A stretch of DNA of 64,000 nucleotides from Butyrivibrio sp. (GTDB lineage Bacteria > Bacillota > Clostridia > Lachnospirales > Lachnospiraceae): assembly GCA_017615275.1 (NCBI GenBank), contig JAGAAO010000038.1, forward strand, positions 56,544 through 120,543. The letters run 5' to 3'. The notes beneath the pieces were generated by a model. The model was not told the origin of the DNA. It did no database searches and was given only the letters and a program-made list of their open reading frames with translations. Each line of letters opens with the position of its first letter. Position 1 is the stretch's first letter. A program made the position numbers and the translations under genes. Positions 21,858-60,402 of the stretch are shown here, one piece after another.

Positions 21858-21896
21858 AAAAAATGCATGGCGGGGACCTCTTGTTATGGAGGGATC

Positions 21897-22559: not shown

Positions 22560-22583
22560 CAATTTTATAGGAATGGGTGGAAT

Positions 22584-23270: not shown

Positions 23271-23289
23271 ACAGAGCTGCTAAAAATCT

Positions 23290-24804
23290 ATGAAAAAATA
23301 CTTTGTTGATATTTTAAATTTTTTCAAACAATTAAAGATCAGTAATCTTTTAAAGAGTCTAAGATTTCGATTTTTCATAATAGTCTTTGCGACAGGATTT
23401 TTATCATGCATCATCATGCATATATTGATCCTGCAAAGCTATGAAGATCGAGCAGTCAATGTCAAGTCCAATGAGGTGCAGACGCAGCTCAGGATTTTGG
23501 CAGATCACCTTTTAAAATATGATAATTATTTAAATAATCCAACATCAACCGTCATAAATGCTGAGCTGGACATGCTGGCCAACCTTTATGACGGTCGTGT
23601 GATGGTTATTAATGATAACCTCAAAGTTGTAAAAGATACTTACAACATAAGTCAGGGAAAGACTATCATTTCTGTTGAAGTTGTAAACTGTCTTAAAGAG
23701 GGTTCTAAAGGTGCACTCTCCAAGTACGATCAGGGAAACGGATACATTGAGATGATCACACCCATAATCGAGACAAAGGGTTATGGAGAAGGAGATGTAT
23801 CGGAAAAGGGAGAAAAAGAGGTCGTAAGAGGAGTTCTTTTGACCAGTGTTTCAACCGATTCCATTGAGACGACTTTGGATATCCTGAGTAAGAGGGCTCA
23901 GCTTATAGAGGGCATCATTACTCTTGTTATATTCGTATATGCTGCCCTTGTATCGATTGGTCTGTTGCAGCCGTTTACCAGGATTACTGCCGCAATTAAT
24001 GACGTTAAAGCGGGATATACGGACGAACCCATTGTCGGACCAAACTATTTTGAGACCGAGCAGATCATAAGAGCATTTAACGCTCTTCTAAAGCGAATGA
24101 AGGTTCTCAATGATTCGCGTCAGGAATTTGTTTCCAACGTGTCTCATGAGCTTAAGACGCCTATAACCTCGATGAAGGTTCTGGCGGATTCTCTTTTGGC
24201 GCAGGACAATGTTCCAAATGAAGTTTATAAGGATTTCATGACGGATATTGTAAGCGAGATAGACAGAGAGGATAAGATCATAAACGATCTGCTTTCTCTT
24301 GTTAAGATGGATAAAACTGCGGCCGATCTTAACATCACGAACGTTGATGTTGTTGAGCTCGTTGAAATAGTCTGCAAGAGACTCAGACCTATTGCGGTGA
24401 AGCACAACATAGAGCTTACTTTGGAGAGCAAACGTGCGATCACGGCTGAGATTGACGAAGTTAAGATATCGCTCGTTATTATGAACTTGGTGGAGAATGC
24501 CATTAAATACAATAAGGATCAGGGTCAGGTTAAGGTTGAACTTGATGCCGACCATCAGTTCTTTACCGTTAAAGTAATGGATACCGGTGAAGGTATTCCT
24601 GAATATGCGCTTTATCATATCTATGAGAGATTTTACAGAGTGGATAAATCAAGATCGAGACAGATCGGTGGAACCGGACTTGGTCTTGCGATTGCGAAGA
24701 ATGCGGTTCTTATGCACAGGGGTACAATTGATGTAGAGAGTAAACCTGATGTGGGAACAACGTTCACTGTTAAGATTCCGCTTATTTATACGAATCCTAA
24801 GTAA
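23290..24804 (+). CDS. Sensor histidine kinase (HAMP-HisKA-HATPase)
   Basis: A 504-residue membrane kinase with transmembrane segments at about 27-49 and 208-229, an extracellular sensor between them, a HAMP linker, the HisKA box with phospho-acceptor His286 (NVSHELKTP), and the ATP-binding N box (NLVENAIKYN), G1 (DTGEGIP) and G2 (GGTGLGLAIAK). It is the cognate kinase of the preceding response regulator. The GerMN lipoprotein downstream may belong to the same operon, as extracytoplasmic partners often do. Confidence 0.94.
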   Translation: MKKYFVDILNFFKQLKISNLLKSLRFRFFIIVFATGFLSCIIMHILILQSYEDRAVNVKSNEVQTQLRILADHLLKYDNYLNNPTSTVINAELDMLANLYDGRVMVINDNLKVVKDTYNISQGKTIISVEVVNCLKEGSKGALSKYDQGNGYIEMITPIIETKGYGEGDVSEKGEKEVVRGVLLTSVSTDSIETTLDILSKRAQLIEGIITLVIFVYAALVSIGLLQPFTRITAAINDVKAGYTDEPIVGPNYFETEQIIRAFNALLKRMKVLNDSRQEFVSNVSHELKTPITSMKVLADSLLAQDNVPNEVYKDFMTDIVSEIDREDKIINDLLSLVKMDKTAADLNITNVDVVELVEIVCKRLRPIAVKHNIELTLESKRAITAEIDEVKISLVIMNLVENAIKYNKDQGQVKVELDADHQFFTVKVMDTGEGIPEYALYHIYERFYRVDKSRSRQIGGTGLGLAIAKNAVLMHRGTIDVESKPDVGTTFTVKIPLIYTNPK

Positions 24805-37693: not shown

Positions 37694-39055
37694 ATGAGTA
37701 AGAAAATTGAACAAGATTTTGATGAAAAAAGGTTGGAGAGGAGACAGAGAAGAAAACGTAATCAGATAACGGCGTATTCTATACTGGCTGTAATTCTGAT
37801 GTTCATTACGGCATCTGTCTTTTCATGCATATATTCCCTTAATAAGGTGTTCGGCAAGACTAAGGACGAACAGGGAATTGAGGCGGCAGAAGAAGGAAGT
37901 TCGAAGGAAGTTGTTATCGAATCTCCGGGGGCTGTTGAGGAAGAGGAATACCTTGTTTCCAATGATGAGCTTTTGGATGGAATTGTCGACACATGTATAA
38001 AGGATATGTCCTTGGAAGATAAGGTTGCGGGGTTATTTATAGTGACTCCCGAGCAGCTTACGGGAGTATCTACAGCTGTCAAGGCAGGGAGCGGAACCAA
38101 GGATGCTCTCATGAAGTATGCGGTTGGCGGTCTGGTTTATTTTTCCAAAAATATCAAAAATGAAGAGCAGATTACAGAAATGCTGGATGAAACTTCCACA
38201 ATGAGTAAGTATCCGGTATTTACTTTGGTTGCAGAGGACGGAAGTAAGAGCGGAGCAATTTCGTCCAAGATCAACATAGAAAACGTAGCAACTGTTACCG
38301 ATTCGGATTCAGCACATACAACTGCTATGGCGGTCGGTAATGCAATGTACAAATACGGCTTTAATTTCAATATTTCACCTGCCATAGCTTATTCATCAAA
38401 AACATCTGATGATGCAGAGCTTGAAAAAGCTAAGGACATCGCGGTTTCTTTTTCTGAGGGTCTTATAGAGTCGGGAATGGTATCATGTTTCGATTCTTTC
38501 CCGTCCAAGGTAGACGCATCGGCAGATAAGACAGAAGTGGATAAGAGCGCAGATGATCTTGAAGCAGCTGAGTATAAAGTGTTCAAGGAAGCTATTGCCA
38601 ATGACAGCGTAAATGCGATCATGGTTTCGGCGGCGTCATATCCAAATGTAGAGAATGACAATTCTCCGGCTTGTCTTTCCAAGACAATGATCACAGATCA
38701 GCTCAGAGGTCACCTTGGATTCGGAGGTATAGTGCTCACAGATTCGCTTAGTTCTCCTGCTGTAACCAAGAATTACAAGTCAGATGAAGCTGCAGTTGCA
38801 GCAATTCAGGCGGGCGCCGATATGATCTATCTTCCCGAAAACTTCGAAGAGGCGTATAATGGTGTATTGAAGGCTGTCAAGGATGGCACTATTACTGAGG
38901 ACAGAATCAATGAGTCACTCAGAAGAATATATAAGATCAAGTATGCCGGAAGAATGGATGTGATCCAGGAGAACAATGACAGTTCCGACGAGCCTGCACA
39001 GGATGCGGCATCGGAGGAAGCATCCGATACATCTTCCGAAGCTGCTGATACTTGA
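37694..39055 (+). CDS. Membrane-anchored GH3-like protein, probably catalytically impaired
   Basis: A 453-residue protein. A basic N-terminus precedes a membrane anchor at about 24-46. A glycoside hydrolase family 3 N-terminal domain (NagZ type, about 95-425) contains MSLEDKVAGLFIV and GIVLTDSLS with the nucleophile-position Asp350. The conserved KHFPGH acid/base loop of NagZ is replaced by VSCFDSFPS at about 263-271, so hydrolysis is doubtful. A Ser/Asp/Glu-rich tail ends the protein. It lies 25 bp before the first VTC gene and may be a glycan-binding partner of that module. Confidence 0.8.
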   Translation: MSKKIEQDFDEKRLERRQRRKRNQITAYSILAVILMFITASVFSCIYSLNKVFGKTKDEQGIEAAEEGSSKEVVIESPGAVEEEEYLVSNDELLDGIVDTCIKDMSLEDKVAGLFIVTPEQLTGVSTAVKAGSGTKDALMKYAVGGLVYFSKNIKNEEQITEMLDETSTMSKYPVFTLVAEDGSKSGAISSKINIENVATVTDSDSAHTTAMAVGNAMYKYGFNFNISPAIAYSSKTSDDAELEKAKDIAVSFSEGLIESGMVSCFDSFPSKVDASADKTEVDKSADDLEAAEYKVFKEAIANDSVNAIMVSAASYPNVENDNSPACLSKTMITDQLRGHLGFGGIVLTDSLSSPAVTKNYKSDEAAVAAIQAGADMIYLPENFEEAYNGVLKAVKDGTITEDRINESLRRIYKIKYAGRMDVIQENNDSSDEPAQDAASEEASDTSSEAADT

Positions 39056-39080
39056 ACCTGTTGGTATACATGGTGGCATA

Positions 39081-39806
39081 ATGAGCAAATACAGAAACGA
39101 ATGGAAATACCTGATAAATTACGGTGAGTATGAAGCTTTGAAGACGCGCATGGGTCCGTATTTTCATATGGATCCCAACGCAATCGACGGAGAGTATATT
39201 ATTCGAAGCTTGTATTTTGATGATATTAAGAACAGTGCCTATGAAGAAAAAGATATGGGTGTGTTCTTCAGAAAAAAATACCGCATCAGAATATACAATT
39301 TTTCCGATTCGAGCATCAAGCTTGAGAGAAAAATAAAAAAAGGCAGTTATATATTCAAAGAAGCAGCGGAGCTCACCAAAGAAGAAGTCTATAAGATAAT
39401 AAACGGCGATTATGACTTTCTGCTTAGGAGTGAAAATAACCTATGCAGAGAGTTTTATTATGAGTGCATAAGCAATTTTATGCGTCCCAGAGTCATAGTC
39501 GATTATGACAGAACTCCATACATCATGGATTCTGGAACAGTCAGGATTACTTTTGACAAAAGAGTGCGGGCGGGAATCGGCAGTTTTGATATATTTGATC
39601 CAAATCTCCCTACACTGTCTGCACTTCCTGCGGATAAGATGATAATGGAGATCAAGTTTACGGAGTTTTTGCCTAAGATAGTTAAGGATCTGGCACCTCC
39701 TGACAGCAGTGAATTTGTCGCAGCATCCAAGTATGTTCTGTGCTGTGATAAGACCAAATACTTAAACGAATATGCATATTACACAGACGAGAGGAGTCTC
39801 ATATGA
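39081..39806 (+). CDS. VTC domain polyphosphate polymerase-like protein, copy 1
   Basis: A 241-residue VTC domain (CYTH-like triphosphate tunnel fold). Typical tunnel residues appear in NEWKYLI (ExK), YIIRSLYFDD, KYRIRIYNF, IKLERKIK and VDYDRTPY, plus MIMEIKFTEFLP near the end. In yeast Vtc4 this fold makes polyphosphate from ATP; bacterial members next to DUF4956 and CotH genes are less understood. ATG 39081 is preferred to the in-frame extension that runs into the GH3 gene. Its stop overlaps the DUF4956 gene by 4 bp. Confidence 0.88.
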   Translation: MSKYRNEWKYLINYGEYEALKTRMGPYFHMDPNAIDGEYIIRSLYFDDIKNSAYEEKDMGVFFRKKYRIRIYNFSDSSIKLERKIKKGSYIFKEAAELTKEEVYKIINGDYDFLLRSENNLCREFYYECISNFMRPRVIVDYDRTPYIMDSGTVRITFDKRVRAGIGSFDIFDPNLPTLSALPADKMIMEIKFTEFLPKIVKDLAPPDSSEFVAASKYVLCCDKTKYLNEYAYYTDERSLI

Positions 39807-40471
39807 GCATAAAAGATGTTATAAAGAAATCTATTTTAAATTCTTATTCCTATTCGGAGTTTGATTTTGTTAAGATCGCATTTTCACTTATAGTCGCACT
39901 TTTACTTGGAATTATGATCTTTCTGGTATATAAGAAGTTCTTTGCCGGAGTTGTCTTTTCCAAGAGCTTTGCGGTTACACTTATCGGTATGTGCGTTCTT
40001 ACATGTATGGTAACGCTGGCAATCAGCACCAATGTGGTTATTTCACTCGGTATGGTGGGTGCGCTTTCAATTGTCAGATTCAGAACTGCGATCAAAGATC
40101 CTCTTGATCTGTTGTATCTGTTCTGGTCTATAACAACGGGAATCACAGCGGGAGCCGGAATGTATGCGCTTACGATTGTTTCTGCGATTATCATGATAGC
40201 TATGATCGCATGCTTCTATGCAAAAGCGTCTGCGGGTCAGGTGTATGTTGCTGTTATCCATTATGATGGACAGGAGACTGCTGAAAAGGTCGCAAAGGCT
40301 TTTGAGAAGACAAAGCATTTTGTAAAATCAAAGACTATTCGCGGAAATACAACAGAGCTTGCGGTTGAAGTTTATGTGAAGAACGATGTGTTTGAATTTG
40401 AGAACAATCTCAGAAGCATCGAAAATGTAAAAGACGTTACATTCATTCAATACAATGGCGAATACAACTAA
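39803..40471 (+). CDS. DUF4956 membrane protein, copy 1
   Basis: A 222-residue protein with about four transmembrane segments in the first 140 residues and a soluble ferredoxin-like C-terminal domain. The DUF4956 core is seen in ISLGMVGALSIVRFRTAIKDP…FWSITTGI. Its function is unknown; the family nearly always neighbours a VTC-domain gene, and the 4-bp overlap here supports a joint role. It resembles the second copy at 44406. Confidence 0.9.
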   Translation: MSIKDVIKKSILNSYSYSEFDFVKIAFSLIVALLLGIMIFLVYKKFFAGVVFSKSFAVTLIGMCVLTCMVTLAISTNVVISLGMVGALSIVRFRTAIKDPLDLLYLFWSITTGITAGAGMYALTIVSAIIMIAMIACFYAKASAGQVYVAVIHYDGQETAEKVAKAFEKTKHFVKSKTIRGNTTELAVEVYVKNDVFEFENNLRSIENVKDVTFIQYNGEYN

Positions 40472-42182: not shown

Positions 42183-42830
42183 TCAGCCCACAGTGAAGTT
42201 GTCTAACATTATAAGAGTCATTTTGTTTGTTTCTTTTTCAAAGACGAAAGTTAAAGCGTATCCGTCATATGTATATGTCATTACATGTGAAAGTTCTGTA
42301 TCATTTGCCTCAGTAGGCTCTCCGTAAATTCTTTTTATATCATCCTGAGTGTTGTAAAAATTTATTCCTCTGCCTGTTTTGGCGTTCTCGCCTGTAATTG
42401 CCAAAGTCACTATAGGTGTTTTGTCATCTTTTTTTACTGCTTCGACATAGAAGTTGTCGTATTTGTAAAAGTAGGAGGATTCATCCGAAGAATCCTTTGT
42501 GGGAGCTCCGAGCTCCTCGGTACAGTCGTTTAAGTCTCCGAAAAGTGAGATGTTCTTTCCTTTGCAGGTTATTATCGTATCGGGAAGCGAATACAGATGA
42601 TTCATATCTATCTTCCCGGAAGTTTTGCTTTCAGAAGTACCTGTGTCTGCATCAAGTGAAGATTCATGTGATGCGCCGCTTGCCGGTGATTCGGCGTCAG
42701 GCGTTTCATAATCATCAACACTCGTTTCAATAGTTTCTTCAATCTCTTTCTCGTTGGAGCCGCAAGCTGCAAGAGACAGAGCAATGGTCGTCATCAGCGC
42801 CGCTGTCAGTATATTTCTTTTTGTTTCCAT
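42183..42830 (-). CDS. Hypothetical secreted lipoprotein
   Basis: A 215-residue lipoprotein with signal and lipobox SLAACG (Cys23), an acidic Ser/Asp/Thr/Glu linker to about 75, then a compact mixed domain of ~140 residues (SLFGDLNDCTEELGAP … YTYDGYALTFVFEKETNKM). The latter pattern resembles small beta-rich lipoprotein domains common in Lachnospiraceae, with no assigned role. A good minus-strand promoter lies at 42911-42939. Confidence 0.7.
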   Translation of the reverse strand: METKRNILTAALMTTIALSLAACGSNEKEIEETIETSVDDYETPDAESPASGASHESSLDADTGTSESKTSGKIDMNHLYSLPDTIITCKGKNISLFGDLNDCTEELGAPTKDSSDESSYFYKYDNFYVEAVKKDDKTPIVTLAITGENAKTGRGINFYNTQDDIKRIYGEPTEANDTELSHVMTYTYDGYALTFVFEKETNKMTLIMLDNFTVG

Positions 42831-42910
42831 ATATATAATCCTTTATTGGTGAATATTTCATTAACTTATGTTCCTTTTTTCGCTTGGTGTGTATTAGTAT
42901 TGTTAATACA

Positions 42911-42939
42911 GGTATAACATAAATGATTTTGGGTGTCAA
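42911..42939 (-). promoter_or_regulatory. Promoter of the 42.2-kb lipoprotein gene
   Basis: On the minus strand, consensus TTGACA (42934-42939), 17 bases, TATACC (42911-42916). It accounts for much of the ~300-base gap, together with the divergent promoter at 43051. Confidence 0.65.
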
Positions 42940-43050
42940 TAAATGGAACCAAGGCAGATCCTGACTGGACGGAGGGGTATTCCGAAGTATTAAATCTGAC
43001 ATAGGCAGAATAACAAGTTATAGAAAAATTAATATTTTTTTAAAAACCTC

Positions 43051-43078
43051 TTGCGATTATAAAAAAAAAGTGTATAAT
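43051..43078 (+). promoter_or_regulatory. Promoter of the CotH/VTC/exopolysaccharide operon
   Basis: TTGCGA (43051-43056), 16-base A-rich spacer, TATAAT (43073-43078), 57 bases before the first gene of the 43.1-51.7 kb gene run. Confidence 0.65.
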
Positions 43079-43134
43079 TGTGAAAGTTGTGTGGTGATAT
43101 TGTGTTTAAATTGTGAAACGGTGGTACATAATTA

Positions 43135-43674
43135 ATGTTTACAAAAGAGAAATTGATCATTGAATTACCCAAAGTGGATTACAATCTTTATTTCACAAAA
43201 GATTCGATCCTGTTTTTGGCAATCATCATATCGATTTTGTTTTCGGTAGTAATGTGTCTTTGGGGACATCATTATTTCAAGGTGATTGCGGAAGTTCTTG
43301 CGGGAGCCGGAATTATGGCTGCAGGAATGATTTTGTTGGATCCGATTATTTCGAGTCCTACAGTGAAAATGTTTTTGCTTGTACTTTTGGTATTTGTATC
43401 CATGAGTATTGTGTTGAGTTTAATAACACATGTATTCAAAAAGGATGACAAGAACAAGGCACAAGCGGGAACGGGGCGGTTTTACCGCGTTGTTGCACCA
43501 ATTGTAGGTGCCGGATTATTGTTCGGTGTCTTTTACACATGTGTCTATTGCGACATTGTGTTTGACGCGATCGTAGCAATGGTGTTTGCATGTCTTGGTT
43601 ATCTTAATCAGATACGTACCAGAGGACATGTGACAGTGTTCCGTACCTATGATGATATATATTACGGGAGGTGA
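43135..43674 (+). CDS. Hypothetical membrane protein at the head of the exopolysaccharide operon
   Basis: A 179-residue protein with about six hydrophobic segments (roughly 25-45, 48-66, 78-100, 120-140, 142-160) and a short basic C-terminus, not recognised with confidence. The alternating glycine-rich helices are vaguely like TMEM198/DUF4203 proteins. It overlaps the following VTC gene region closely (stop at 43672-43674, VTC ATG at 43677), so it is likely co-translated with it. Confidence 0.65.
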   Translation: MFTKEKLIIELPKVDYNLYFTKDSILFLAIIISILFSVVMCLWGHHYFKVIAEVLAGAGIMAAGMILLDPIISSPTVKMFLLVLLVFVSMSIVLSLITHVFKKDDKNKAQAGTGRFYRVVAPIVGAGLLFGVFYTCVYCDIVFDAIVAMVFACLGYLNQIRTRGHVTVFRTYDDIYYGR

Positions 43675-43676
43675 CT

Positions 43677-44363
43677 ATGCTTGATGTAAGTAGAAAAGAG
43701 CTTAAGTATCTTATCGGAACCGATGAGATATACATTTACAAGAGCAAGCTTGAAAAGATCATGGACGCCGATCCGCATAATAAAGACGGTGGCTACACAA
43801 TAAGATCACTGTATTTTGACACATTCCATGATAACGATTATATGGAGAAGATTGACGGACTGGATAAGCGACAGAAAATACGTATGCGAATCTACGACGG
43901 AAGCACAAGTATAATCAAGCTTGAACTTAAAGCTAAGGAGGGTGATTTCCAGAGAAAAAGATCCCTCACGCTCAATCTCGAGGAAGCAGAAAGTTTGATA
44001 GATGGGGACTATACCTTTCTGATGGAGAGACCTGAGCACTTTGCCCACGGACTGTACACTATGATGCACACAAAGGGCTATATTCCAAAATGTATCGTTG
44101 AATACGACAGAATGGCATTCATGAACGAGTTCAACGATATAAGAATAACGTTTGATATGAACCTTAGAGCTTTGGAGGATCCGTCTGAATTTTTTAAAGC
44201 CAACATTGATGCGTACCCGGTAGCTGACCCTGCTGAGACGACAATGGAAGTTAAATACAACGGATTTTTGTTCTCATATATTAAGCAGACACTTGATGTT
44301 GTGAACAGACCAAGGATATCAAACAGTAAATATGTAAGATCCAGAGCTTTTGCAAAACAGTAA
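43677..44363 (+). CDS. VTC domain polyphosphate polymerase-like protein, copy 2
   Basis: A 228-residue VTC/CYTH-fold protein with RKELKYLIG (the ExK tunnel motif), YTIRSLYFDT, KIRMRIYDG, IKLELKAK, VEYDRMAF and TTMEVKYNGFL. It is homologous to copy 1 at 39081 but clearly diverged. GGGAGG sits 8 bases before ATG 43677. As in copy 1 the next gene encodes a DUF4956 protein. Predicted to act on ATP or polyphosphate at the membrane; the true bacterial substrate is not established. Confidence 0.88.
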   Translation: MLDVSRKELKYLIGTDEIYIYKSKLEKIMDADPHNKDGGYTIRSLYFDTFHDNDYMEKIDGLDKRQKIRMRIYDGSTSIIKLELKAKEGDFQRKRSLTLNLEEAESLIDGDYTFLMERPEHFAHGLYTMMHTKGYIPKCIVEYDRMAFMNEFNDIRITFDMNLRALEDPSEFFKANIDAYPVADPAETTMEVKYNGFLFSYIKQTLDVVNRPRISNSKYVRSRAFAKQ

Positions 44364-44405
44364 TAAAAAGAGAAAGATAGTAAGAGAAAGAGAGAGATTT
44401 ATAAA

Positions 44406-45092
44406 ATGAAAGAGCATCTTTACACGCAACTTATGGACACAGCAGGAACATTAACTGTTGAACAGATTATTTATAACTTTGTAGCAGCATGTATCCTCAG
44501 TATCATGATTTACATTTCATACAGAGTATCCCACTCAGGTGCGGTATACAGCAGAAAGTTTAACGTATCACTCGTTATGCTTGCGCTCGTTACAACACTT
44601 GTTATGAATGTTATCGGAAACAACATCGCATTGTCACTTGGTATGGTCGGTGCGTTGTCAATCGTTCGTTTCAGAACAGCTATCAAAGATCCCAGAGATA
44701 CAGCTTACATTTTCTGGTCAATCGCAATTGGTATCACTTGTGGTGTATCCAATTACCTCATTGCAGGAATCGGAACATTTGTTATTTTCGTATTCCTTAT
44801 CCTCTTCGGTGTAGTAAGAGACAATGAGAGAATCATGATCGTTATGAAGTCAGAGGCTGATAAGGTAGAAGAGCTTGACAAAGAGATCGTTTCATTCTTT
44901 GCAGGTAAGGCTACAATGAAGCTTCAGAATGTTAACAAGGACAAGAATGTAGCAGAGCTTATCTATGAGATTTCTGAGACAAACCTTAAGAAGCGTGAAA
45001 AAGCTAACGGAGCTTTTGTTCCCGGTTTTTCTACTAAGGAAGGGGTTAAGACAGTTAGTCTCGTAAGACAGGACGAGGAAATTAACCAGTAA
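44406..45092 (+). CDS. DUF4956 membrane protein, copy 2
   Basis: A 228-residue membrane protein with four predicted helices and a cytoplasmic C-terminal domain. The core is SLGMVGALSIVRFRTAIKDPRDTAYIFWSIAIGI, almost the same as in copy 1. It lies between the second VTC gene and cotH. The codon choice is smoother than in the flanking genes, hinting at higher expression. Confidence 0.9.
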   Translation: MKEHLYTQLMDTAGTLTVEQIIYNFVAACILSIMIYISYRVSHSGAVYSRKFNVSLVMLALVTTLVMNVIGNNIALSLGMVGALSIVRFRTAIKDPRDTAYIFWSIAIGITCGVSNYLIAGIGTFVIFVFLILFGVVRDNERIMIVMKSEADKVEELDKEIVSFFAGKATMKLQNVNKDKNVAELIYEISETNLKKREKANGAFVPGFSTKEGVKTVSLVRQDEEINQ

Positions 45093-45116
45093 TTAAGTAG
45101 GAATGAGTGGGCACAG

Positions 45117-46760
45117 ATGCGAAAGATATTTGAAATAAAGGAAAGAGGAGCTCTTGTTGCACTTAGCCTTTTGATGGTATTTATCATGGCATTCTTAAGC
45201 TTTTGCAATTCGGATGACAGGTATGGGATAAGTCCCGACGGAACCTATGCAAGCCTTAAGCCGGATGCATCAACTGATGATCCTCTTCTGTATATAGATA
45301 AAGATTTTAAAGTTAAGCAAGGTTTTCATACAAACCTTCCCATCGTAGTTCTTTCACTTGACACTGAACTTCCCGTATACAAGAGGTTTAGGAACGGTCA
45401 GGAAGAATTGTTGGACGAAGGAGATCCCTACACATCGGGAAGCATCAGAGTAATAGACAGCGGAACGGGAGATAATTCTCTTGCAACACCCGCAAGTTAC
45501 AACAGTGCAATCCGCATCAAGATGAAGGGACACTCTTCATTCATGTATGACAAGAAACAGTTTAAATTTAAATCTGTTTACGCTGACGGAAAAGAGAACG
45601 ATACAAGCATCCTTGGCATGGGCGAGGGAAGCGAGTGGGTTCTCAACGGAAGTATGGCAGATAAGAGCATGATAAGAAATTATCTTGCATATAGAATTGC
45701 ATCGGAGATCGGTGGAAATAACATGGCTCCGGACAGCAGATTCTGCGAAGTTCTCGTCGAGAAAAACGGCTCATATGAGTATCAGGGCGTATACCTTCTT
45801 ATGGAGACCATCTCAAGGGGTGATGAGAGAGTAAAGATCGATCAGTACAACCCTAAGAATGTATACTCCAGCTATATCGTAAGAAGAGACAGAAAAACAA
45901 ATTACGATATAATGCTCAATACTTACGGCAGAGAGACAGGAAAAGTTATACAGGAAGTAAAGCCTTATGACAACTGGATCGGTCTTAAGTATCCTTCACA
46001 GTCAAAGGTTACGGACGAGACTGTTGCGTACATTGAAAAAGATTTCTCCAAGATGGAGAAAGTCGTATATTCTGATGATGTTTCGGTATTCAGAGCATAC
46101 GACAAATATATAGATACACAGACATTTGCAGATTATTTCCTGATCAACGAGTTCTTTGGAAACTACGATGCAGGTAAGCATTCGACTTACATGTACAAGA
46201 ATTCCGGAGAAAGACTCAAGATCGGACCCGTTTGGGATTTCGACCAGGCGCTTAACAACAACCCTTTGGTTGAAATGGATCTGGAAGATCTTGCGTTCCA
46301 CACGCAGGATATTTACAAGCAGATATGTAATGACAAGAAATTTGTAAAGATTCTGAAGAACAGATTTACTTACCTTCGTCAGAATCAGTTGTCTACAGAT
46401 CACATATTTGACGTTATAGATGAAACTACAGCATACCTTAAATCGGCTCAGGTAAGAGAGTGGTACAGATGGGCAGATGATTATCTTGATCCTTCAAATG
46501 AGAATCCACATAACTATCATCTTGAGTCATATGAGAAAGATGGTGTGACATTATCAAGATTTACGGATGAATATGCAGACGAGATCTATGTTATTAAGAG
46601 TTTCATCCAGAAGCACGGCGAAGTCGTGCAGCTTGACCTCGGAAATATTCTTGGTTCGGCGCAGCTTAACACTACCGTAGGAGGAATAAGAGAACTTTTG
46701 CTTATGGCAACACTTATGTTGCTTATTATTCCGTCATATTTGATTCAGAGAAAGGGGTAA
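45117..46760 (+). CDS. CotH kinase family membrane protein
   Basis: A 547-residue CotH protein with an N-terminal signal anchor (about 12-31) and a C-terminal membrane helix (about 524-542), so the kinase domain faces outside. Kinase-like motifs are MKGHSSFMYDKKQFKFK, EWVLNGSMADKSMIRNYLA, YQGVYLLMETISR and the metal-binding WDFD (Asp374). Spore-coat CotH phosphorylates coat proteins; here the substrate is unknown. It links the VTC-DUF4956 pair to the polysaccharide genes, 24 bp and 3 bp from its neighbours. Confidence 0.9.
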   Translation: MRKIFEIKERGALVALSLLMVFIMAFLSFCNSDDRYGISPDGTYASLKPDASTDDPLLYIDKDFKVKQGFHTNLPIVVLSLDTELPVYKRFRNGQEELLDEGDPYTSGSIRVIDSGTGDNSLATPASYNSAIRIKMKGHSSFMYDKKQFKFKSVYADGKENDTSILGMGEGSEWVLNGSMADKSMIRNYLAYRIASEIGGNNMAPDSRFCEVLVEKNGSYEYQGVYLLMETISRGDERVKIDQYNPKNVYSSYIVRRDRKTNYDIMLNTYGRETGKVIQEVKPYDNWIGLKYPSQSKVTDETVAYIEKDFSKMEKVVYSDDVSVFRAYDKYIDTQTFADYFLINEFFGNYDAGKHSTYMYKNSGERLKIGPVWDFDQALNNNPLVEMDLEDLAFHTQDIYKQICNDKKFVKILKNRFTYLRQNQLSTDHIFDVIDETTAYLKSAQVREWYRWADDYLDPSNENPHNYHLESYEKDGVTLSRFTDEYADEIYVIKSFIQKHGEVVQLDLGNILGSAQLNTTVGGIRELLLMATLMLLIIPSYLIQRKG

Positions 46761-46763
46761 AAA

Positions 46764-48197
46764 ATGATATTTTCAAGTATACCGTTTTTAGTATATTTTT
46801 TCCCTATCGTTTTTCTGGGATATTATATACTCTCCTTCTCAAGAATGGCACAAAATATATGGCTGTTAATAGCAAGTCTCTTGTTTTATGCCTGGGGAGA
46901 GCCAATATATGTATTCCTCATGATCGGTTCGATACTGTTTAACAGTATAATCGCGATCATCATAGAGAAAGTAAAAGGTCAAAAGCTTAAGAAAGGCCTG
47001 CTTGTTTTCTCGATAGTCGGAAATATTTCGGTTCTTTTTGTGTTTAAGTACCTTATGTTTGTAGTCGGAATTGTGAATAGTGCATTTGCAGGTCTTTTAC
47101 CCGAGTATAAGATCACGCTTCCTATCGGAATTTCATTCTTCACATTCCAGGCACTTTCATATGTTGTTGATGTGTACAGAGGAACAACGAAAGCGGAAAA
47201 TCCTTTCTATGTAGGACTTTACGTAGCTTTCTTCCCTCAGCTTATTGCGGGACCCATCGTACAGTACAACTCGATCGCAGAGCAGATAAGAAGCAGAAAG
47301 AGCAGCATAGATAAAGTTGCACTCGGCTTATCACGTTTTGCTGTAGGTGTAGGTAAGAAGATCCTTATTGCGAATAACCTTGCTATTATTGCGAACGAAG
47401 TATTTAACTGGTCACTCATCGGTAGCGACAAGTTGGCTGTTCCCGCAACACTTGCATGGCTTGGATCTATTGCATATTCACTTCAGCTGTATTTCGACTT
47501 TTCGGCATATTCAGATATGGCGATCGGTCTCGGACTTTGCTTTGGATTTAAATTTAAAGAGAACTTCAACTATCCTTACGTTGCCGGATCTATTTCAGAG
47601 TTCTGGAAACGTTGGCATATTTCTTTGACAGATTGGTTCAGAGATTATGTATATATTCCTCTCGGAGGAAACAGAGTTGCAAATAAGGATACCATGGTTA
47701 GAAACCTTGCTATAGTTTGGCTTCTTACAGGTATCTGGCACGGTGCAAACTGGACATTCATTGTTTGGGGAATGTTCTTCTTTGCATTCCAGCTCTTTGA
47801 GAGAATTTTGGATTTTGATAATCACGTTCACAATGAATTCTTTAAGCATGTATATACCTTGCTGATAGTTAATTTCCAGTGGGTATTGTTCAGAGCTGAT
47901 GATATTTATCAGGCAGGACGTTTTTATCTTAACATGTTTGGACTTAACAATAACGGAATACTCAGCCAGACGGCATTAATGTTCGTAAGAGAATATTGGA
48001 TGTTCTTATTGGCAGGAATTATTTTCTCAACACCGATTATCCCGATGCTGAACAAGTGGTTCCATTCACATGAGAAAACTCCGATTCATGTAGCATATTC
48101 AATCGCATATCCCGTACTTATGTCGGTTATGGTGATCGTATGTATCAGCTATCTTGTTATCGGAAGTTACAATCCGTTTATTTACTTTAATTTCTAA
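46764..48197 (+). CDS. MBOAT family O-acyltransferase (AlgI/DltB-like)
   Basis: A 477-residue polytopic membrane protein of the MBOAT family, with the core NYPYVAGSISEFWKRWHISL, RDYVYIPLGGNR and the catalytic-histidine motif LLTGIWHGANWTF (His326). AlgI-type members pass acetyl groups across the membrane to a periplasmic or surface transferase for O-acetylation of exopolysaccharide. Its partner is probably the DHHW protein encoded 14 bp downstream. Confidence 0.94.
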   Translation: MIFSSIPFLVYFFPIVFLGYYILSFSRMAQNIWLLIASLLFYAWGEPIYVFLMIGSILFNSIIAIIIEKVKGQKLKKGLLVFSIVGNISVLFVFKYLMFVVGIVNSAFAGLLPEYKITLPIGISFFTFQALSYVVDVYRGTTKAENPFYVGLYVAFFPQLIAGPIVQYNSIAEQIRSRKSSIDKVALGLSRFAVGVGKKILIANNLAIIANEVFNWSLIGSDKLAVPATLAWLGSIAYSLQLYFDFSAYSDMAIGLGLCFGFKFKENFNYPYVAGSISEFWKRWHISLTDWFRDYVYIPLGGNRVANKDTMVRNLAIVWLLTGIWHGANWTFIVWGMFFFAFQLFERILDFDNHVHNEFFKHVYTLLIVNFQWVLFRADDIYQAGRFYLNMFGLNNNGILSQTALMFVREYWMFLLAGIIFSTPIIPMLNKWFHSHEKTPIHVAYSIAYPVLMSVMVIVCISYLVIGSYNPFIYFNF

Positions 48198-48211
48198 AGG
48201 AAGGTGCCGTG

Positions 48212-49444
48212 ATGAAATATTTTACAAAAAAGAGAATATTTGCGGCAGTTTTCTTACTGGGTGTTTTTTCATTCAGTGCCGTAAATATTTATAACAATAG
48301 ATTTACTCTGCTTAAACAAGTAGAGAAGTATGAAAAAGAGCCGCAAAAGATTCCTGAAAAACTTGAAAAAGTTATGGAAGATGACATATACGGCAAGACA
48401 GAATTTGTCGAGACTTACGGCTTTACGCAGAAAGCCCTCGGCAAGGATGAATTCAATGACTTTGAATATGTCAAAGACAAGAAGGGATTCCTTCATTATT
48501 CGGCATTCTATCGTGACGAGCAAAAGAATATTTTTGAGTGTGCTCTCAGGGTAAAGAAACTTCAGAACTATGTTGAGAAGTACGGAACAAAGGTGCTTTT
48601 TGTAATGGCACCTGCAAAGTACAACAGACAGTATACTGAGTTTGCGATGGGAACGCCGGTAAACGATCCTTCGGAAGATACATATGAGATGCTGGTTTAT
48701 CTCAACAGACTGGGAGTTCCGTGCATCAACCTCGCTGAGAATATTCCGAACAGTGAGATACCTTACGAACAGGCATTTTTCAAAACTGACCACCACTGGA
48801 CAGTTCCTGCCGCATTTGATGCGACAAAGATAATTGTTAACGATCTCAACGACAGATATGGTGCAAATCTTGATCCTACAGGATATTACCTGTCGGACGG
48901 AGCATATACCAAGAAGGAATATAAGAATCAGATGCTCGGTTCAATGGGAAGAGATACCGGTATCATTTATTCCGGTCGTGAAGATTTTACAGCTTATCTT
49001 CCTAATTTCAGTGGTCATTACAAGAGAACCTATGTAATGGACGGCGAGGAAACTTTGGAAGGAACATATACGGATGCGCTTTTGGACCCTACAGTTCTTG
49101 AGCCTACCCTCAATCTTTATGAGGATTCACCGTATTCACTTTATATTAAACAGGTTACAAACCTTGAGCATATTGAGAATCTCGATAACACTGACGGTCC
49201 AAGTGTACTTATGGTAAGAGATTCATTCTTTGGACCCGTTATCTCCTTCATGGCACCTATGTGCAGCAAGATTGATGCAATCTGGTCTATGGAGAAGATG
49301 GATGACATAAACGTAGGCGAATACATAAAAGGACAGTATGAAAAAGGAGAGAAGTACGATTATCTCATAGTTGAGTACTATCCTCACAACCTTGAAGAAG
49401 ATGCTTTTAAATTCTTCCGTGGAGATCACGAAAATGAAAATTAA
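48212..49444 (+). CDS. DHHW family (AlgX/AlgJ-like) surface protein
   Basis: A 410-residue protein with a single N-terminal anchor (about 6-25) and an extracellular SGNH-like domain. The DHHW family signature is TDHHW (Asp193-Trp196), with FVMAPAKYNRQY and MVRDSFFGPVISFMAP as further SGNH-like blocks. Such proteins complete polysaccharide O-acetylation begun by an MBOAT protein. ATG 48212 is chosen over the adjacent GTG because of the GGAAGG spacing. The end overlaps the glycosyltransferase gene by 11 bp. Confidence 0.88.
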   Translation: MKYFTKKRIFAAVFLLGVFSFSAVNIYNNRFTLLKQVEKYEKEPQKIPEKLEKVMEDDIYGKTEFVETYGFTQKALGKDEFNDFEYVKDKKGFLHYSAFYRDEQKNIFECALRVKKLQNYVEKYGTKVLFVMAPAKYNRQYTEFAMGTPVNDPSEDTYEMLVYLNRLGVPCINLAENIPNSEIPYEQAFFKTDHHWTVPAAFDATKIIVNDLNDRYGANLDPTGYYLSDGAYTKKEYKNQMLGSMGRDTGIIYSGREDFTAYLPNFSGHYKRTYVMDGEETLEGTYTDALLDPTVLEPTLNLYEDSPYSLYIKQVTNLEHIENLDNTDGPSVLMVRDSFFGPVISFMAPMCSKIDAIWSMEKMDDINVGEYIKGQYEKGEKYDYLIVEYYPHNLEEDAFKFFRGDHENEN

Positions 49445-51740
49445 GATTTGCTTTTGGATAAATACATTTTTTTCTATTCTGTATCTTGTATGGAGAATAT
49501 TCTTTACCATTCCGTTTGGATGCGGATGGTTGTCAGTTATGTGCGGCGTTATTCTTCTTGTGCTTGAAGCTCTCGGTATGGTCGAGGCGTTTGTTCACTT
49601 TATGAATATGCATTCCGTAAGTGATTACAAGGTTCCCGATGTGCCGAAGGAGCGTTTTCCTCACATCGATGTGTATATTTCCACATACAGTGAGGAGCCG
49701 GAGCTTTTGTACAAGACCATCAACGGCTGCAAAAACATGGAATATCCGGACAAGAGCAAAGTGCATATTTACCTTTGCGATGATAACAGAAGACCGGAGA
49801 TGGAAGAGCTTGCCAAGAAGATGGGCGTTAACTACTTGAAGCGTGCCGATAACAAGGGCGCTAAGGCAGGTAACCTGAACCATGCTCTTGCGCATTCGAC
49901 ATCACCTTACGTTCTTACATTCGACGCTGATATGATCCCTCAGAAGAGATTCCTGATGCAGCTCGTGCCGTATCTTGTTGACGCTGAGATGAAGAACGAG
50001 AACAAGAAAGAAGAGGATAAGATAAAGATCGGCTTTATCCAGTCCCCTCAGAACTTTTACAATCCCGACCTGTTCCAGTTCAACCTCTTTTCAGAGGACA
50101 GAATTCCGAACGAACAGGACTATTTCTATAAAGATATTCAGGCTGCCAGAACTAAGAGTAACAGTGTTATTTACGGTGGCTCGAATACGATTATCTCAAG
50201 AGAAGCTCTTGAGGCTATCGGTGGATTCTTTACTGATGCCATTACAGAGGACTTTGCAACAGGTATCCTGATCCAGAGAGCGGGCTTTGTCTGCCTCGGA
50301 ACAAGCGATCCTTTGGCATCGGGACTTTCACCGACAGACATACCTAACCTTATCCAGCAGCGTATTCGCTGGGGACGAGGCGTTATTGCAACCGGAAGAA
50401 AGATGCACATATACACTGCAAAAGATCTTTCTCTTTCTCAAAAATTAAATTATTGGGCATCAATATGGTATTGGTATTCACCGGTTAAAAGACTTGTATA
50501 CATGGTATCACCTATTTTGTATGCAGCATTCGGTTTTACTATATTTAAATGTACCCTACCGCAGGTATTGGCATTCTGGCTTCCGATGTATTTAACGTCA
50601 AATCTGGCACTGAGCCAGCTCTCGGGAAATGTCCGCTCAAACAAGTGGACAGGTATATACGAGACAATCATGTTCCCTTATATGCTGCTTCCTATAACCC
50701 TTGAAACCTTTGGAATCACTCTTAAGAAGTTCAAGGTTACACAGAAGAGTCAGATGAGCGGTAAACAGCACTATGAGCTGTATATGATTCCGTTCCTGAT
50801 ACTTATAGCGCTCTCGGCGCTTGGAATTATACGTTGTATCGCTGTTATTTTCGACAGTTCATCATTCGGCCCCGCAGTGGTTTTGTTCTGGATGATCATG
50901 AACCTTTACTACATGGTAATGGCTGTTCTGTTTATTGACGGTCGTGCGGCTTACAGAAAATCAGAGAGAATACCTCTTGAGATGCCTTGCACATTCACAA
51001 TAAACGGAATCGAGAGACAGGGTGTTACTGTAGACGTATCGGAAGAAGGTCTTGCTGTTCAGTTTGATAAGCCTTACTTCATCGATGAAGAAGCAGAAGT
51101 ACCTGTTGCTCTTAACTGGGAAAATTGTGATACAAACATCGTTACCAAACTTGTATATGTAAAGAGACACCATGAACAGTGGCGTTACGCTATGGTTATT
51201 ACAAATTACAAGGATAGCTATAACGAGTGGCTTAATATCGTTTATAACAGAATTCCGCCGCTTCCTTCCGAGATCATCAAGGACAGTGGAAGTTACGACG
51301 ATATCATGCTTAATACAAATAAGAGACTTGATCCTCCTTCATTCCAGAAGAGAATCTATCCCAGAGTTCTTCTTAACTATGACGGAACTATCGTAGGGGA
51401 AGAGGAGACCAAGGTACATATCAAGAACTTTAACTATGCTTGCATCAATCTTGCGATCTCAAACGGTCCCAAGAAGATGGTCATCAGACTCTTTGATGAT
51501 GTTACTCTCAGCTGCAGCTTTGTATTTAAGAGCCGCGGTAAGAACTGCATCTATCGCATCGAGAACATGCAGGACATCATAGAAGACAAAGAGAAGTACG
51601 CTAAGCTTTTGGACTTCCTTGTTGTTAACAACAAAAAGGCAAGAGGAGAAGATAAGCTTGAGAAGACTGAGAAGAGGCGTAGAGAAAAAGAAGAGGAAAG
51701 ACGCAGACTTATCGTATTCGATGAGCTTGATTGCGTTTAA
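49434..51740 (+). CDS. Cellulose-synthase-like glycosyltransferase with PilZ domain
   Basis: A 768-residue processive GT2 enzyme of the BcsA type. It has two N-terminal helices, a GT domain with DDNR (116-119), DADM (164-167), TED (271-273) and QQRIRW (308-313), and further membrane helices to about 503. A PilZ domain carries the c-di-GMP-binding RKSER (508-512) and DVSEEG (534-539). A second PilZ-like segment retains RIYPR (640-644) but lacks a DxSxxG motif. A charged coiled-coil tail ends it. It likely polymerises and exports a beta-glucan activated by c-di-GMP. A strong terminator follows. Confidence 0.93.
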   Translation: MKIKICFWINTFFSILYLVWRIFFTIPFGCGWLSVMCGVILLVLEALGMVEAFVHFMNMHSVSDYKVPDVPKERFPHIDVYISTYSEEPELLYKTINGCKNMEYPDKSKVHIYLCDDNRRPEMEELAKKMGVNYLKRADNKGAKAGNLNHALAHSTSPYVLTFDADMIPQKRFLMQLVPYLVDAEMKNENKKEEDKIKIGFIQSPQNFYNPDLFQFNLFSEDRIPNEQDYFYKDIQAARTKSNSVIYGGSNTIISREALEAIGGFFTDAITEDFATGILIQRAGFVCLGTSDPLASGLSPTDIPNLIQQRIRWGRGVIATGRKMHIYTAKDLSLSQKLNYWASIWYWYSPVKRLVYMVSPILYAAFGFTIFKCTLPQVLAFWLPMYLTSNLALSQLSGNVRSNKWTGIYETIMFPYMLLPITLETFGITLKKFKVTQKSQMSGKQHYELYMIPFLILIALSALGIIRCIAVIFDSSSFGPAVVLFWMIMNLYYMVMAVLFIDGRAAYRKSERIPLEMPCTFTINGIERQGVTVDVSEEGLAVQFDKPYFIDEEAEVPVALNWENCDTNIVTKLVYVKRHHEQWRYAMVITNYKDSYNEWLNIVYNRIPPLPSEIIKDSGSYDDIMLNTNKRLDPPSFQKRIYPRVLLNYDGTIVGEEETKVHIKNFNYACINLAISNGPKKMVIRLFDDVTLSCSFVFKSRGKNCIYRIENMQDIIEDKEKYAKLLDFLVVNNKKARGEDKLEKTEKRRREKEEERRRLIVFDELDCV

Positions 51741-51744
51741 TGCT

Positions 51745-51773
51745 GAGCCGGCGCGTTTGCGCCGGCTCTTTTT
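51745..51773 (+). terminator. Terminator of the exopolysaccharide operon
   Basis: GAGCCGGCGC-GTTT-GCGCCGGCTC perfect 10-base stem and tetraloop with a five-T tail. Confidence 0.95.
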
Positions 51774-51784
51774 AAGTAATCACT

Positions 51785-51803
51785 AGGTTCGGTCCTTTCG
51801 AAC
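51785..51803. repeat. Dispersed repeat R3, copy 1
   Basis: AGGTTCGGTCCTTTCGAAC, a small hairpin-forming unit (GGTTCG/CGAACC). A copy with one substitution lies at 52212-52230 on the other side of the palindrome array. Confidence 0.7.
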
Positions 51804-51825
51804 CGTAGTGTACTACTTAGTTCCG

Positions 51826-51853
51826 GCGAGCGAACGCGAGAGCGGAACTTCAT
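51826..51853. repeat. Dispersed repeat R4, copy 1
   Basis: A 28-bp GC-rich unit beginning GCGAGCGAACGCGAG and ending GAACTTCAT. It has three substitutions relative to its second copy at 52171-52198. Confidence 0.7.
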
Positions 51854-51885
51854 CTATTTTTCTTAATGCGACAGCCCTATTAAAG

Positions 51886-51934
51886 GCGCTCCGCAAAGTT
51901 GCGTGGTTCGCGGAATGGTAGATAATTGCTTCGC
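51886..51934. repeat. Dispersed repeat R2, copy 1
   Basis: A 49-bp unit opening GCGCTCCGC and closing TCGCGGAATGGTAGATAA then TTGCTTCGC. A second copy with conserved ends and a varied middle is at 61959-62008. Both lie shortly after a transcription terminator. Confidence 0.7.
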
Positions 51935-51973
51935 GCGCGAGCAGTGTAATTACGCAGAATAATTGCGGTGAAT

Positions 51974-52160
51974 CCAGATTAAATTACCGAATATGATGCG
52001 ATTTATCTGGGATTTTAAAGCGATTTTGAGTGACAGGCTGTGATAATTCCAGATAAAAGAGATGAAAGTCATGCGATTTATCTGGAAATTAAAGGAAATA
52101 TTGTGTGAAAAGTCTCGTCAATCCCAGATAAAAACGCTATAAGTTATAGTATTTATCTGG
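51974..52160. repeat. Tandem array of three 37-bp palindromes with a 75-bp period
   Basis: Palindromes at 51974-52010, 52049-52085 and 52124-52160, each exactly 37 bp, with arms CCAGATAAA / TTTATCTGG (the first has one change in the left arm) and 19-base centres that differ. Starts are exactly 75 bp apart, leaving two 38-bp spacers that share loose similarity (ATTAAAG…TTGTGTGAAAAG type). A solitary relative is at 12472-12508. Not coding in any convincing frame. Confidence 0.85.
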
Positions 52161-52170
52161 ATTCAGAGCC

Positions 52171-52198
52171 GCGAGCGAATGCGAAAGCGGAACATCAT
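52171..52198. repeat. Dispersed repeat R4, copy 2
   Basis: GCGAGCGAATGCGAAAGCGG-type unit; see copy 1 at 51826. It abuts the third palindrome of the array. Confidence 0.7.
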
Positions 52199-52211
52199 TT
52201 AACTAACCAAT

Positions 52212-60137: not shown

Positions 60138-60402
60138 AGAGCTACAAGTGTAGTTCTCCTGGGGTGTCCGACAACTCCTGTGTAATTTGAACCTACATTA
60201 CTTTAAACGGGACTCCTACATTGCTGTTATAAATGTCACGCCTTCGGCCCTGCGCATGCGCAGACAAAGCTATGGGAGAGGAAGACAGGCATATCAGTTG
60301 CGGTAACCCACCTGGCGTTAGCTAGGAGTCAAATAACAGGAACCGGCATTTTGGGATTTAAATTGGGTATAAAAGCAGTCATATTTCTTATGGCTGCTTT
60401 TT
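60138..60402 (+). ncRNA. ssrS: Probable 6S RNA
   Basis: A strong promoter and an intrinsic terminator (60371-60402) bound a 265-base non-coding stretch. The ends pair in a long closing stem (60157-60166 with 60347-60356, then CCG/CGG, then TCCTGT/ACAGGA). The middle has a bubble with a small GTAAT/ATTAC hairpin, and a terminal stem GACTCCTA / TAGGAGTC continues into a CTGCGCATGCGCAG hairpin. Closing stem, central bubble and terminal stem are the 6S architecture; GGTGTCCG resembles its 5-prime consensus. 6S RNA mimics an open promoter and sequesters RNA polymerase. The mature end may be nearer 60356. Confidence 0.65.
60371..60402 (+). terminator. Terminator of the 6S-like RNA
   Basis: GCAGTCATA / TATGGCTGC stem with a TTTCT loop and a five-T tail. 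Confidence 0.8.

Follow-up and report, generated by a model that had tools for sequence, protein, structure and literature searches.

A Butyrivibrio operon that joins a VTC-DUF4956-CotH block to genes for a BcsA-type, probably acylated exopolysaccharide

Three described gene clusters are among the closest to the one reported here: the ccsZABHI cluster (PMC7710045), the CotH-PPP-DUF4956 accessory group of Gram-positive pelDEADAFG loci (PMC7112168, PMC12345266) and the NELoc-2 locus of C. perfringens (PMC2879425, PMC11677781); statements on these and the other cited papers refer to the passages of each that were covered. The present cluster occupies positions 43135-51740 on the + strand of a 64,000-nt stretch (the window) of contig JAGAAO010000038.1 from Butyrivibrio sp. 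It consists of seven genes, as set out in a preliminary description of this DNA: a membrane protein (g1), a VTC domain protein (g2), a DUF4956 protein (g3), a CotH-family kinase (g4), an MBOAT acyltransferase (g5), an SGNH/DHHW-type acyltransferase partner (g6) and a BcsA-type processive glycosyltransferase (GT) with a PilZ domain (g7). We interpret it, with about an even chance of being right, as an operon that makes and secretes an acylated beta-glucan and has a dedicated phosphate module, the triad of VTC, DUF4956 and CotH, built in.

With ccsZABHI the window operon has in common a BcsA-like GT with PilZ, an MBOAT (CcsH) and a DHHW protein (CcsI), which in that system serve an O-acetylated glucan. 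CcsZ is a GH5 enzyme; many relatives of the window operon have a GH5 gene alongside, whereas the window operon does not, and because no GH5 gene is adjacent we have not filed it as Ccs. The word "CotH" is absent from the text of PMC7710045, as are VTC and DUF4956 from its passages covered here. The Pel accessory group shares the other three families, likewise adjoining an exopolysaccharide synthase, and CotH, VTC (named poly-phosphate polymerase in the Pel papers) and DUF4956 are adjacent in the window operon as they are there. However, the Pel loci have another polymer and another synthase, and a CotH of another lineage with one transmembrane (TM) segment, placed before VTC in the Pel loci surveyed rather than after DUF4956. 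No PelG match was found in the host genome (85% complete), so the operon is not contiguous with a pelDEADAFG locus. In NELoc-2 a gene labelled "tubulin/FtsZ" occupies the DUF4956 position between VTC and CotH; next come a 685-aa protein, a HEAT protein and a chitin-synthase-like GT2, with no MBOAT or SGNH genes, and the passages covered assign the cluster no function (PMC2879425, PMC11677781). We found 19 NELoc-2-type loci with the CotH lineage of the window. Two further systems resemble parts of the operon. PatAB and Dlt (PMC12148441) share the catalytic His of MBOAT, the C-terminal FxYxxF acyl shuttle and an SGNH partner, although the substrate in the window would be a BcsA-type polymer. The eukaryotic VTC complex (PMC9911596) shares the TTM domain residues R264, R266 and E426 and couples synthesis to membrane passage, whereas the 230-aa window protein is one VTC domain lacking TM segments and has a separate membrane partner in DUF4956.

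The exopolysaccharide association of the triad is thus not wholly new, being in print for Pel (PMC7112168, PMC12345266) and visible, unexplained, in NELoc-2 (PMC2879425). A 2025 paper reported that CotH-VTC-DUF4956 synteny was not found outside Pel; we found the three genes adjoining outside Pel many times, including in the host genome. No description of the triad with a BcsA/MBOAT/SGNH operon was recognised in the parts covered of the open-licence PMC literature (no preprints). Within the literature searched, the kind of association is known from Pel; the novelty lies in its BcsA-MBOAT-SGNH form, in how widely this form is spread and in the dependence of CotH on VTC.

The preliminary description had proposed looking for the same gene order among relatives, and the order does recur, both among loci assigned by name to Lachnospiraceae and in further families. 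In the best 80 of 236 loci from a CotH-alignment scan of named genomes, which span 13 named families (13 loci are without a family name) and contain near-copies (L060/L021 and L089/L022 are VTC-identical to loci of the family survey described below), the exact order VTC-DUF4956-CotH-MBOAT-SGNH-BcsA is found in 30. Carriers include Oribacterium, Acetobacterium dehalogenans (L042), Blautia schinkii (L075), Clostridium lacusfryxellense and Proteocatella sphenisci. Near CotH lie BcsA, MBOAT and SGNH in 47 loci, BcsA and MBOAT in two and BcsA alone in seven (56 with BcsA), MBOAT with part of SGNH up to the contig end in three, and NELoc-2-type genes (an approximately 720-aa protein, a HEAT protein and a chitin-synthase-like GT2) in 19, two of which (L100 and L109) are on contigs that end before any GT. 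Two of the 80 loci lack a recognised CotH open reading frame (ORF) and nonetheless have the NELoc-2-type genes. All 78 recognised CotH ORFs, two of them shorter than 450 aa (L085, which lies at a contig start, and L111, which is split in two), adjoin polysaccharide synthase-type genes, a count to be read with the fact that the query alignment was built from BcsA- and NELoc-2-linked members and that locus selection was not blind. Synthase type follows descent in both proteins: it needs four label changes on the VTC tree (one VTC of less than 190 aa left out) against a shuffled mean of 29, and nine on the CotH tree against 59, and in both trees the program flags joined long branches.

A survey of 120 genomes of the host's family (at least 150 CotH matches, with a complete tally of genomes) places this lineage in a wider setting. 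VTC and DUF4956 form a near-fixed pair: 126 of 133 VTC loci have a same-strand DUF4956 gene no more than 1 kb away, with VTC first in all 126; the host genome has four matches to each, all four paired. CotH is an optional third member, found within 2.5 kb of the pair in 53 triads from 38 genomes. Synthase genes adjoin 18 of these triads (four BcsA-, six NELoc-2- and eight Pel-type), which rules out the idea that the block always travels with a processive GT and is always paired with a synthase. The remaining 35 point to other uses, bearing in mind that the hidden Markov models used cover BcsA-, NELoc-2- and Pel-type genes only, that triads beside other GTs count as without (among them L143, with weak GT2 matches, and L123 and L140, with weaker MBOAT matches), and that several contigs are short, so that synthase genes may be missed. 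Seventeen of the 35 have a longer CotH type, 10 have CotH before VTC, seven are unplaced and one, on a 4.4-kb contig, has a Pel-type CotH. Measured against the refuting condition set in the preliminary description, the coupling to polysaccharide genes therefore stands for the CotH lineage of the window and fails for the triad as a whole, which is not a polysaccharide module. Six of the 17 longer-CotH triads have two-component genes no further than 4 kb away (L015:7044-12416, L034, L035, L121, L138 and L139), and one copy of this triad type is present in the window's own genome.

These figures bear on an alternative in which two neighbouring units share a promoter by historical chance and the phosphate block is unrelated to the glucan. 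The 35 triads without these synthases agree with it, as do the 73 of 126 VTC-DUF4956 pairs that have no CotH within 2.5 kb. It is at odds with a gene order shared by 30 of the 80 loci, with the synthase-type genes beside every one of the 78 close CotH relatives, with VTC and CotH lineages that are matched to synthase type, and with 12 loci in which BcsA directly follows CotH, a rearrangement without separation. We consider chance improbable.

The synthase and acylation genes are well conserved; residue counts here and below refer to sequences of more than 150 bits without stops (98 VTC, 91 CotH, 60 MBOAT, 55 SGNH and 64 BcsA). The product of g7 (49434-51740) aligns with solved BcsA through the synthase, membrane and PilZ regions (7lby, E 1.9e-64), and its D, DxD, TED and RxRW motifs are kept in 63-64 of the 64 relatives. 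Its match to TIGR03030, the UDP-forming cellulose synthase equivalog (E 2.1e-114), reaches 383 bits, under the cut-off of 699, and for this reason we do not call it a cellulose synthase proper. The PilZ motifs are RKSER (RxxxR) and DVSEEG ((D/N)xSxxG), with key residues in 57-61 of 64 relatives and the RxxxR Arg in 60-61 of 64; no second PilZ domain was matched by Pfam after residue 620 at E<=1. With 27 GGDEF matches in the host genome, control of polymer synthesis by cyclic di-GMP (c-di-GMP) through PilZ is plausible. In g5 (46764-48197; PF03062 5.8e-29) the C-terminal FIYFNF fits FxYxxF, the acyl-shuttle motif described for PatA and DltX (PMC12148441), which stands at the C-terminus of 57 of 60 MBOATs, and the WHG histidine motif is present in 60 of 60. 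The product of g6 (48209-49444; PF16822 1.1e-9, PF14286 3.9e-5), with one N-terminal TM segment, has a DHHW match of 23.5 bits, under the Pfam cut-off of 25, and 52-54 of 55 relatives retain each of the DHHW and RDS residues. An acylation machine of BcsA-type synthase, MBOAT and DHHW/SGNH protein, as first proposed for this locus, is borne out by the intact motifs and by the kinds of parts, which are those of ccsZABHI. A beta-glucan product is supported by GH5 cellulase genes, which lie no further than 4 kb from BcsA at 38 of 64 BcsA loci. The polymer is probably an acylated beta-glucan, and the acyl group could be acetyl.

Relatives of the operon vary around this core. The gap between cotH and the MBOAT gene is 3 nt in the window and more than 150 nt in 20 of 30 same-order relatives, and a short, conserved ORF for a putative microprotein was seen in 28 of 29 gaps examined (168-283 nt in the 26 longer ones; e.g., L046:3880-4053, L047:10206-10367 and L084:5486-5665). 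The microprotein has 52-73 aa, a single TM segment, the pattern (Y/F)F(L/F)...(I/V/L/F)R before it and a mostly basic tail; the pattern was part of the ORF search and so is not independent evidence. The window and several close relatives have too little room for it. A role as a DltX-like acyl carrier was rejected, as the Tyr is Phe in three of 28 and MBOAT has its own shuttle. Five BcsA operons have a second, divergent VTC-DUF4956 pair directly 3' of BcsA (L047:15480, L050:15666, L051:14212, L069:16866 and L070:16929), and these VTCs form their own long branch on the VTC tree. In L086 and L088 the BcsA-MBOAT-SGNH genes are followed by a second DUF4956-CotH pair, so that two CotH genes flank one synthase gene, and in Proteocatella sphenisci both cluster types stand side by side. 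A 1047-aa BcsA-like ORF at L037:8732-11875 also gives a GH5 match, and synthase and cellulase may be fused there. A gene of the metallo-beta-lactamase fold (Pfam) lies between SGNH and BcsA at L073:14280-15104, and in L020, L075, L077, L080, L082 and L083 by phmmer similarity to it; the match counted for the window was discarded as an artefact, being a ComEC-like gene at 25782, which leaves 16 of 64 loci. At L024:13181-15001 the gene immediately after the NELoc-2-type GT2 encodes a GGDEF-EAL protein, hinting that this cluster too could be under c-di-GMP control.

In the phosphate module, g2 (43671-44363; PF09359 2.2e-37) matches Vtc4 (3g3q) by profile at E 2.1e-12, in an alignment confined to the initial three quarters of the domain. 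Residues K12, R71, R73, E85, K87, K96, R147, R158, E193, K195 and K220 are kept in 96-98 of 98 VTCs. The TTM catalytic residues taken as a group, kept in 95-98 of 98, include counterparts of Vtc4 R264 and R266 by alignment, and of E426 and the C-terminal Lys by pattern, outside the local alignment; joint change of R264, R266 and E426 impairs the polymerase (PMC9911596). We predict that g2 encodes an active TTM-fold polyphosphate polymerase. A PPK1-type match elsewhere in the host genome means that VTC is not needed for bulk polyphosphate and is not the sole possible maker of it. The product of g3 (44406-45092; Pfam DUF4956 1e-15) was modelled as a helical membrane part with a predicted cytoplasmic ACT-like C-terminal domain (mean pLDDT, a per-residue model confidence score, 82); against solved structures it had no sequence match at E<=1 and no fold match (Foldseek) at E<=0.001. 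Residues R88 and R90 of DUF4956 are invariant. The model agrees with the published reading of SIR_1592 of S. intermedius, a protein that we equate with DUF4956 (a name absent from the source passages), as an MgtC-type membrane domain plus an ACT domain (PMC12345266).

This resemblance raises the question of whether VTC-DUF4956-CotH could be a regulatory or phosphate/ATP-homeostasis module, in which an MgtC-like DUF4956 would tune the supply of ATP, phosphate or c-di-GMP to the synthase while the matrix receives no phosphate. A weak MgtC match in 62 of 64 aligned DUF4956 proteins and the ACT-like model are consistent with such a role, as are the two-component genes beside six of the 17 longer-CotH triads. 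PMC12345266, moreover, cites MgtC as an inhibitor of ATP synthase that also targets PhoR, and reports a raised Pel level in the S. intermedius mutant of the MgtC/ACT gene (SIR_1592). Yet the window DUF4956 scores under the Pfam MgtC cut-off (22.6 against 31.4 bits), and a purely regulatory role leaves unexplained both the intact catalytic residues of CotH and VTC and the genome-wide tie between the two families described below. We regard this alternative as unlikely.

The kinase g4 (45117-46760; PF08757 1.5e-46, the Pfam CotH model spanning its full length) matches Bacillus CotH (5jd9) by profile in its N-terminal part only (E 6.2e-5). Its Asp pair, which we take to be metal-binding (the number of the partner of D228 in B. 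subtilis CotH is likewise our assumption), is kept as D351 in 91 of 91 relatives and D374 in 90 of 91. It aligns with the pair of spore-coat-size CotH proteins in an alignment that does not contain B. subtilis CotH itself. D351 is likely the counterpart of B. subtilis D228, of which the D228Q variant is inactive (PMC7821199). A hydrophobic segment at each end and the positive-inside rule place the domain outside the cell, so that the outward-facing CotH of the preliminary description is retained as a prediction. By simple hydropathy, segments at both ends are found in 60 of 62 BcsA-linked CotH proteins, the exceptions being a fragment (L020) and a protein truncated at the start of its contig (L049); this is the strict count, and 63 of 67 is obtained when CotH beside MBOAT only is also taken in. 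NELoc-2-linked (24/24) and Pel-linked (9/9) CotH proteins have the N-terminal segment only.

The two-ended topology peculiar to BcsA-linked CotH would also suit a structural synthase partner, a stand-in for CcsB or BcsB outside the membrane whose kinase activity is incidental. CcsB is described with two TM helices around an extracellular part (PMC7710045), and locus L039, which has BcsA, MBOAT and SGNH without CotH, encodes a protein of 357 aa with two TM segments, its gene lying between those for GT and MBOAT. This protein had no phmmer match at any other BcsA locus. It was the one usable query of the comparison and is a candidate CcsB; a second query (L038) seemed on visual inspection to be a different sort of protein. 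The catalytic Asp pair, kept in 90-91 of 91, speaks against incidental activity, and we think a solely structural CotH quite improbable.

If VTC-DUF4956 supplies the phosphate, CotH should depend on VTC even where the two are not neighbours, and whole-genome counts are in line with this. In the host's family VTC is present in 57 of 60 CotH genomes and in 34 of 60 without CotH (p=9e-7); among 199 genomes of the phylum it is present in 23 of 27 CotH genomes and in two of 172 others (p=6.5e-24), these being Fisher tests that ignore phylogeny. Outside the host family the phylum survey gives 21 of 25 against two of 172, and 14 families hold both CotH and VTC. Among the four phylum genomes with CotH only, two carry nothing but a CotH of 361 or 364 aa without a TM segment or signal, and the CotH of G295 falls below the family cut-off. 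Judged by size, the 361- and 364-aa proteins are like spore-coat CotH, which we take to be made in the mother cell, an assumption on which this reading of them is based. The co-occurrence supports, without proving, a role as phosphate donor. Published deletions in the Pel system of S. intermedius also favour the phosphate module, as they altered both polymer amount and aggregation: the SIR_1592 mutant made more Pel and the CotH mutant less, each with more than 50% less aggregation in sputum medium (PMC12345266).

Together these observations suggest how the operon might work. BcsA (g7) would polymerise and extrude the glucan, gated by c-di-GMP via PilZ. MBOAT (g5) would load an acyl group on the Tyr of its own C-terminal FIYFNF and pass it to the SGNH/DHHW protein (g6), which would place it on the emerging chain. 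At the cytoplasmic face VTC (g2) would make polyphosphate from ATP, and DUF4956 (g3), its usual membrane partner, which has an ACT-like domain, would couple the polyphosphate to the membrane. CotH (g4), tethered outside by its two TM segments, would move phosphate to a surface substrate, either the glucan or a protein holding it. The related eukaryotic kinases Fam20B and POMK phosphorylate sugars. We infer that VTC-DUF4956 supplies polyphosphate to the outward CotH because CotH and VTC co-occur across genomes and because TM-less, spore-coat-sized CotH proteins are among the exceptions. In its fullest form the proposal makes VTC-DUF4956 a bacterial synthase and exporter of polyphosphate, from which exported CotH-family kinases would draw their phosphoryl groups; in this operon the kinase would act on the emerging acylated beta-glucan or its anchor, yielding a phospho-acyl-glucan matrix that c-di-GMP switches on. 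We hold this tentatively, as a possibility that we would bet against. Where CotH obtains ATP when it phosphorylates the spore coat is a question described as unanswered in PMC7821199.

A number of findings weigh against the phosphate-module reading, beginning with the phylogeny-blind tests and the 35 triads without BcsA-, NELoc-2- or Pel-type genes already given. G191 has an exported CotH without VTC and is a true exception; three genomes of the host family (G027, G048 and G097) have a CotH, exported or not, without VTC; and G185, a mild counter-case, has VTC elsewhere and only a TM-less CotH. S. intermedius can produce Pel without these genes, and for deletion of its VTC-type gene the section covered describes no significant effect (PMC12345266). 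A BcsA-like PilZ synthase from Romboutsia makes a mixed-linkage glucan, and its PilZ domain, with both motifs present, did not bind c-di-GMP (PMC10374906). No GH5 gene was found in the window (the remainder of the genome was not searched), nor a CcsB-like gene beside the operon by phmmer with the single L039 query. Biochemistry of a bacterial VTC-DUF4956 pair was not found in the literature covered.

CotH-VTC-DUF4956 stands beside synthase genes for polysaccharides of three different kinds, and elsewhere beside none of them, which points to a general surface function not tied to one sugar. On the reading favoured here, Lachnospiraceae-type bacteria should have cellulose-like matrices that are both acylated and phosphorylated. 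If the proposal of a polyphosphate donor is true, it would solve the problem of kinase action outside the cell, where ATP is scarce. The phosphate source of a kinase outside the membrane becomes a testable question in named carriers, and the recurrence of the operon in many relatives allows tests of extracellular phosphorylation by bacteria.

At the level of layout, all seven + strand ORFs described earlier are present, and Pfam backs six of the seven identities (VTC, DUF4956, CotH, MBOAT, ALGX/SGNH with DHHW, and GT2 with PilZ). The intergenic gaps are, in gene order, -4, 42, 24, 3, 11 and -11 bases if the GT gene starts at ATG 49434; its ORF is open from TTG 49371, and ATG 49434, with an 11-base overlap with g6, is the likeliest start. 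Gaps of at most 42 bp thus hold, and the "several overlaps" first reported come to two. A strong intrinsic terminator follows at 51745-51768 (+ strand), with a 10-pair stem of nine G-C pairs and then TTTTT. The promoter placed at 43051-43078 (+ strand; TTGCGA-16-TATAAT) keeps 10 of 12 consensus positions and is a plausible sigma-70 candidate; an overlapping divergent site on the - strand has 11 of 12, and promoter-like sites in the region (24) do not exceed those in shuffles (28.7).

The first gene, g1 (43135-43674), encodes a 179-aa protein with about five hydrophobic segments and has no Pfam match above cut-off, only a sub-threshold DUF92. It aligns with 26 relatives at 17-29% identity; the family is fast-evolving and precedes VTC in many same-order operons, and its larger members (354-405 aa) carry an added N-terminal part. 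Foldseek gave no match at E<=0.001 for its AlphaFold model (mean pLDDT 81).

Elsewhere in the window, a second VTC-DUF4956 pair without CotH (VTC from about ATG 39081 to 39806, DUF4956 at 39803-40471) sits 3' of a GH3 glycosidase-like gene (region 37694-40471) and ends 2.7 kb upstream of the operon. Its VTC groups with Pel-type VTCs on the VTC tree (97, starred), in a genome in which PelG was not found. The region 21867-24804, considered by gene sizes as a further VTC-DUF4956-CotH set, was rejected, since Pfam identifies SLBB/helix-hairpin-helix (ComEA-like), response regulator and histidine kinase genes. Rfam gave no family at gathering score in or before the operon, and a relaxed scan of 42500-52200 gave four matches, all far under gathering scores. 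The sole gathering-level Rfam match in the window is a 6S RNA (RF00013, 53.8 bits) at 60153-60361.

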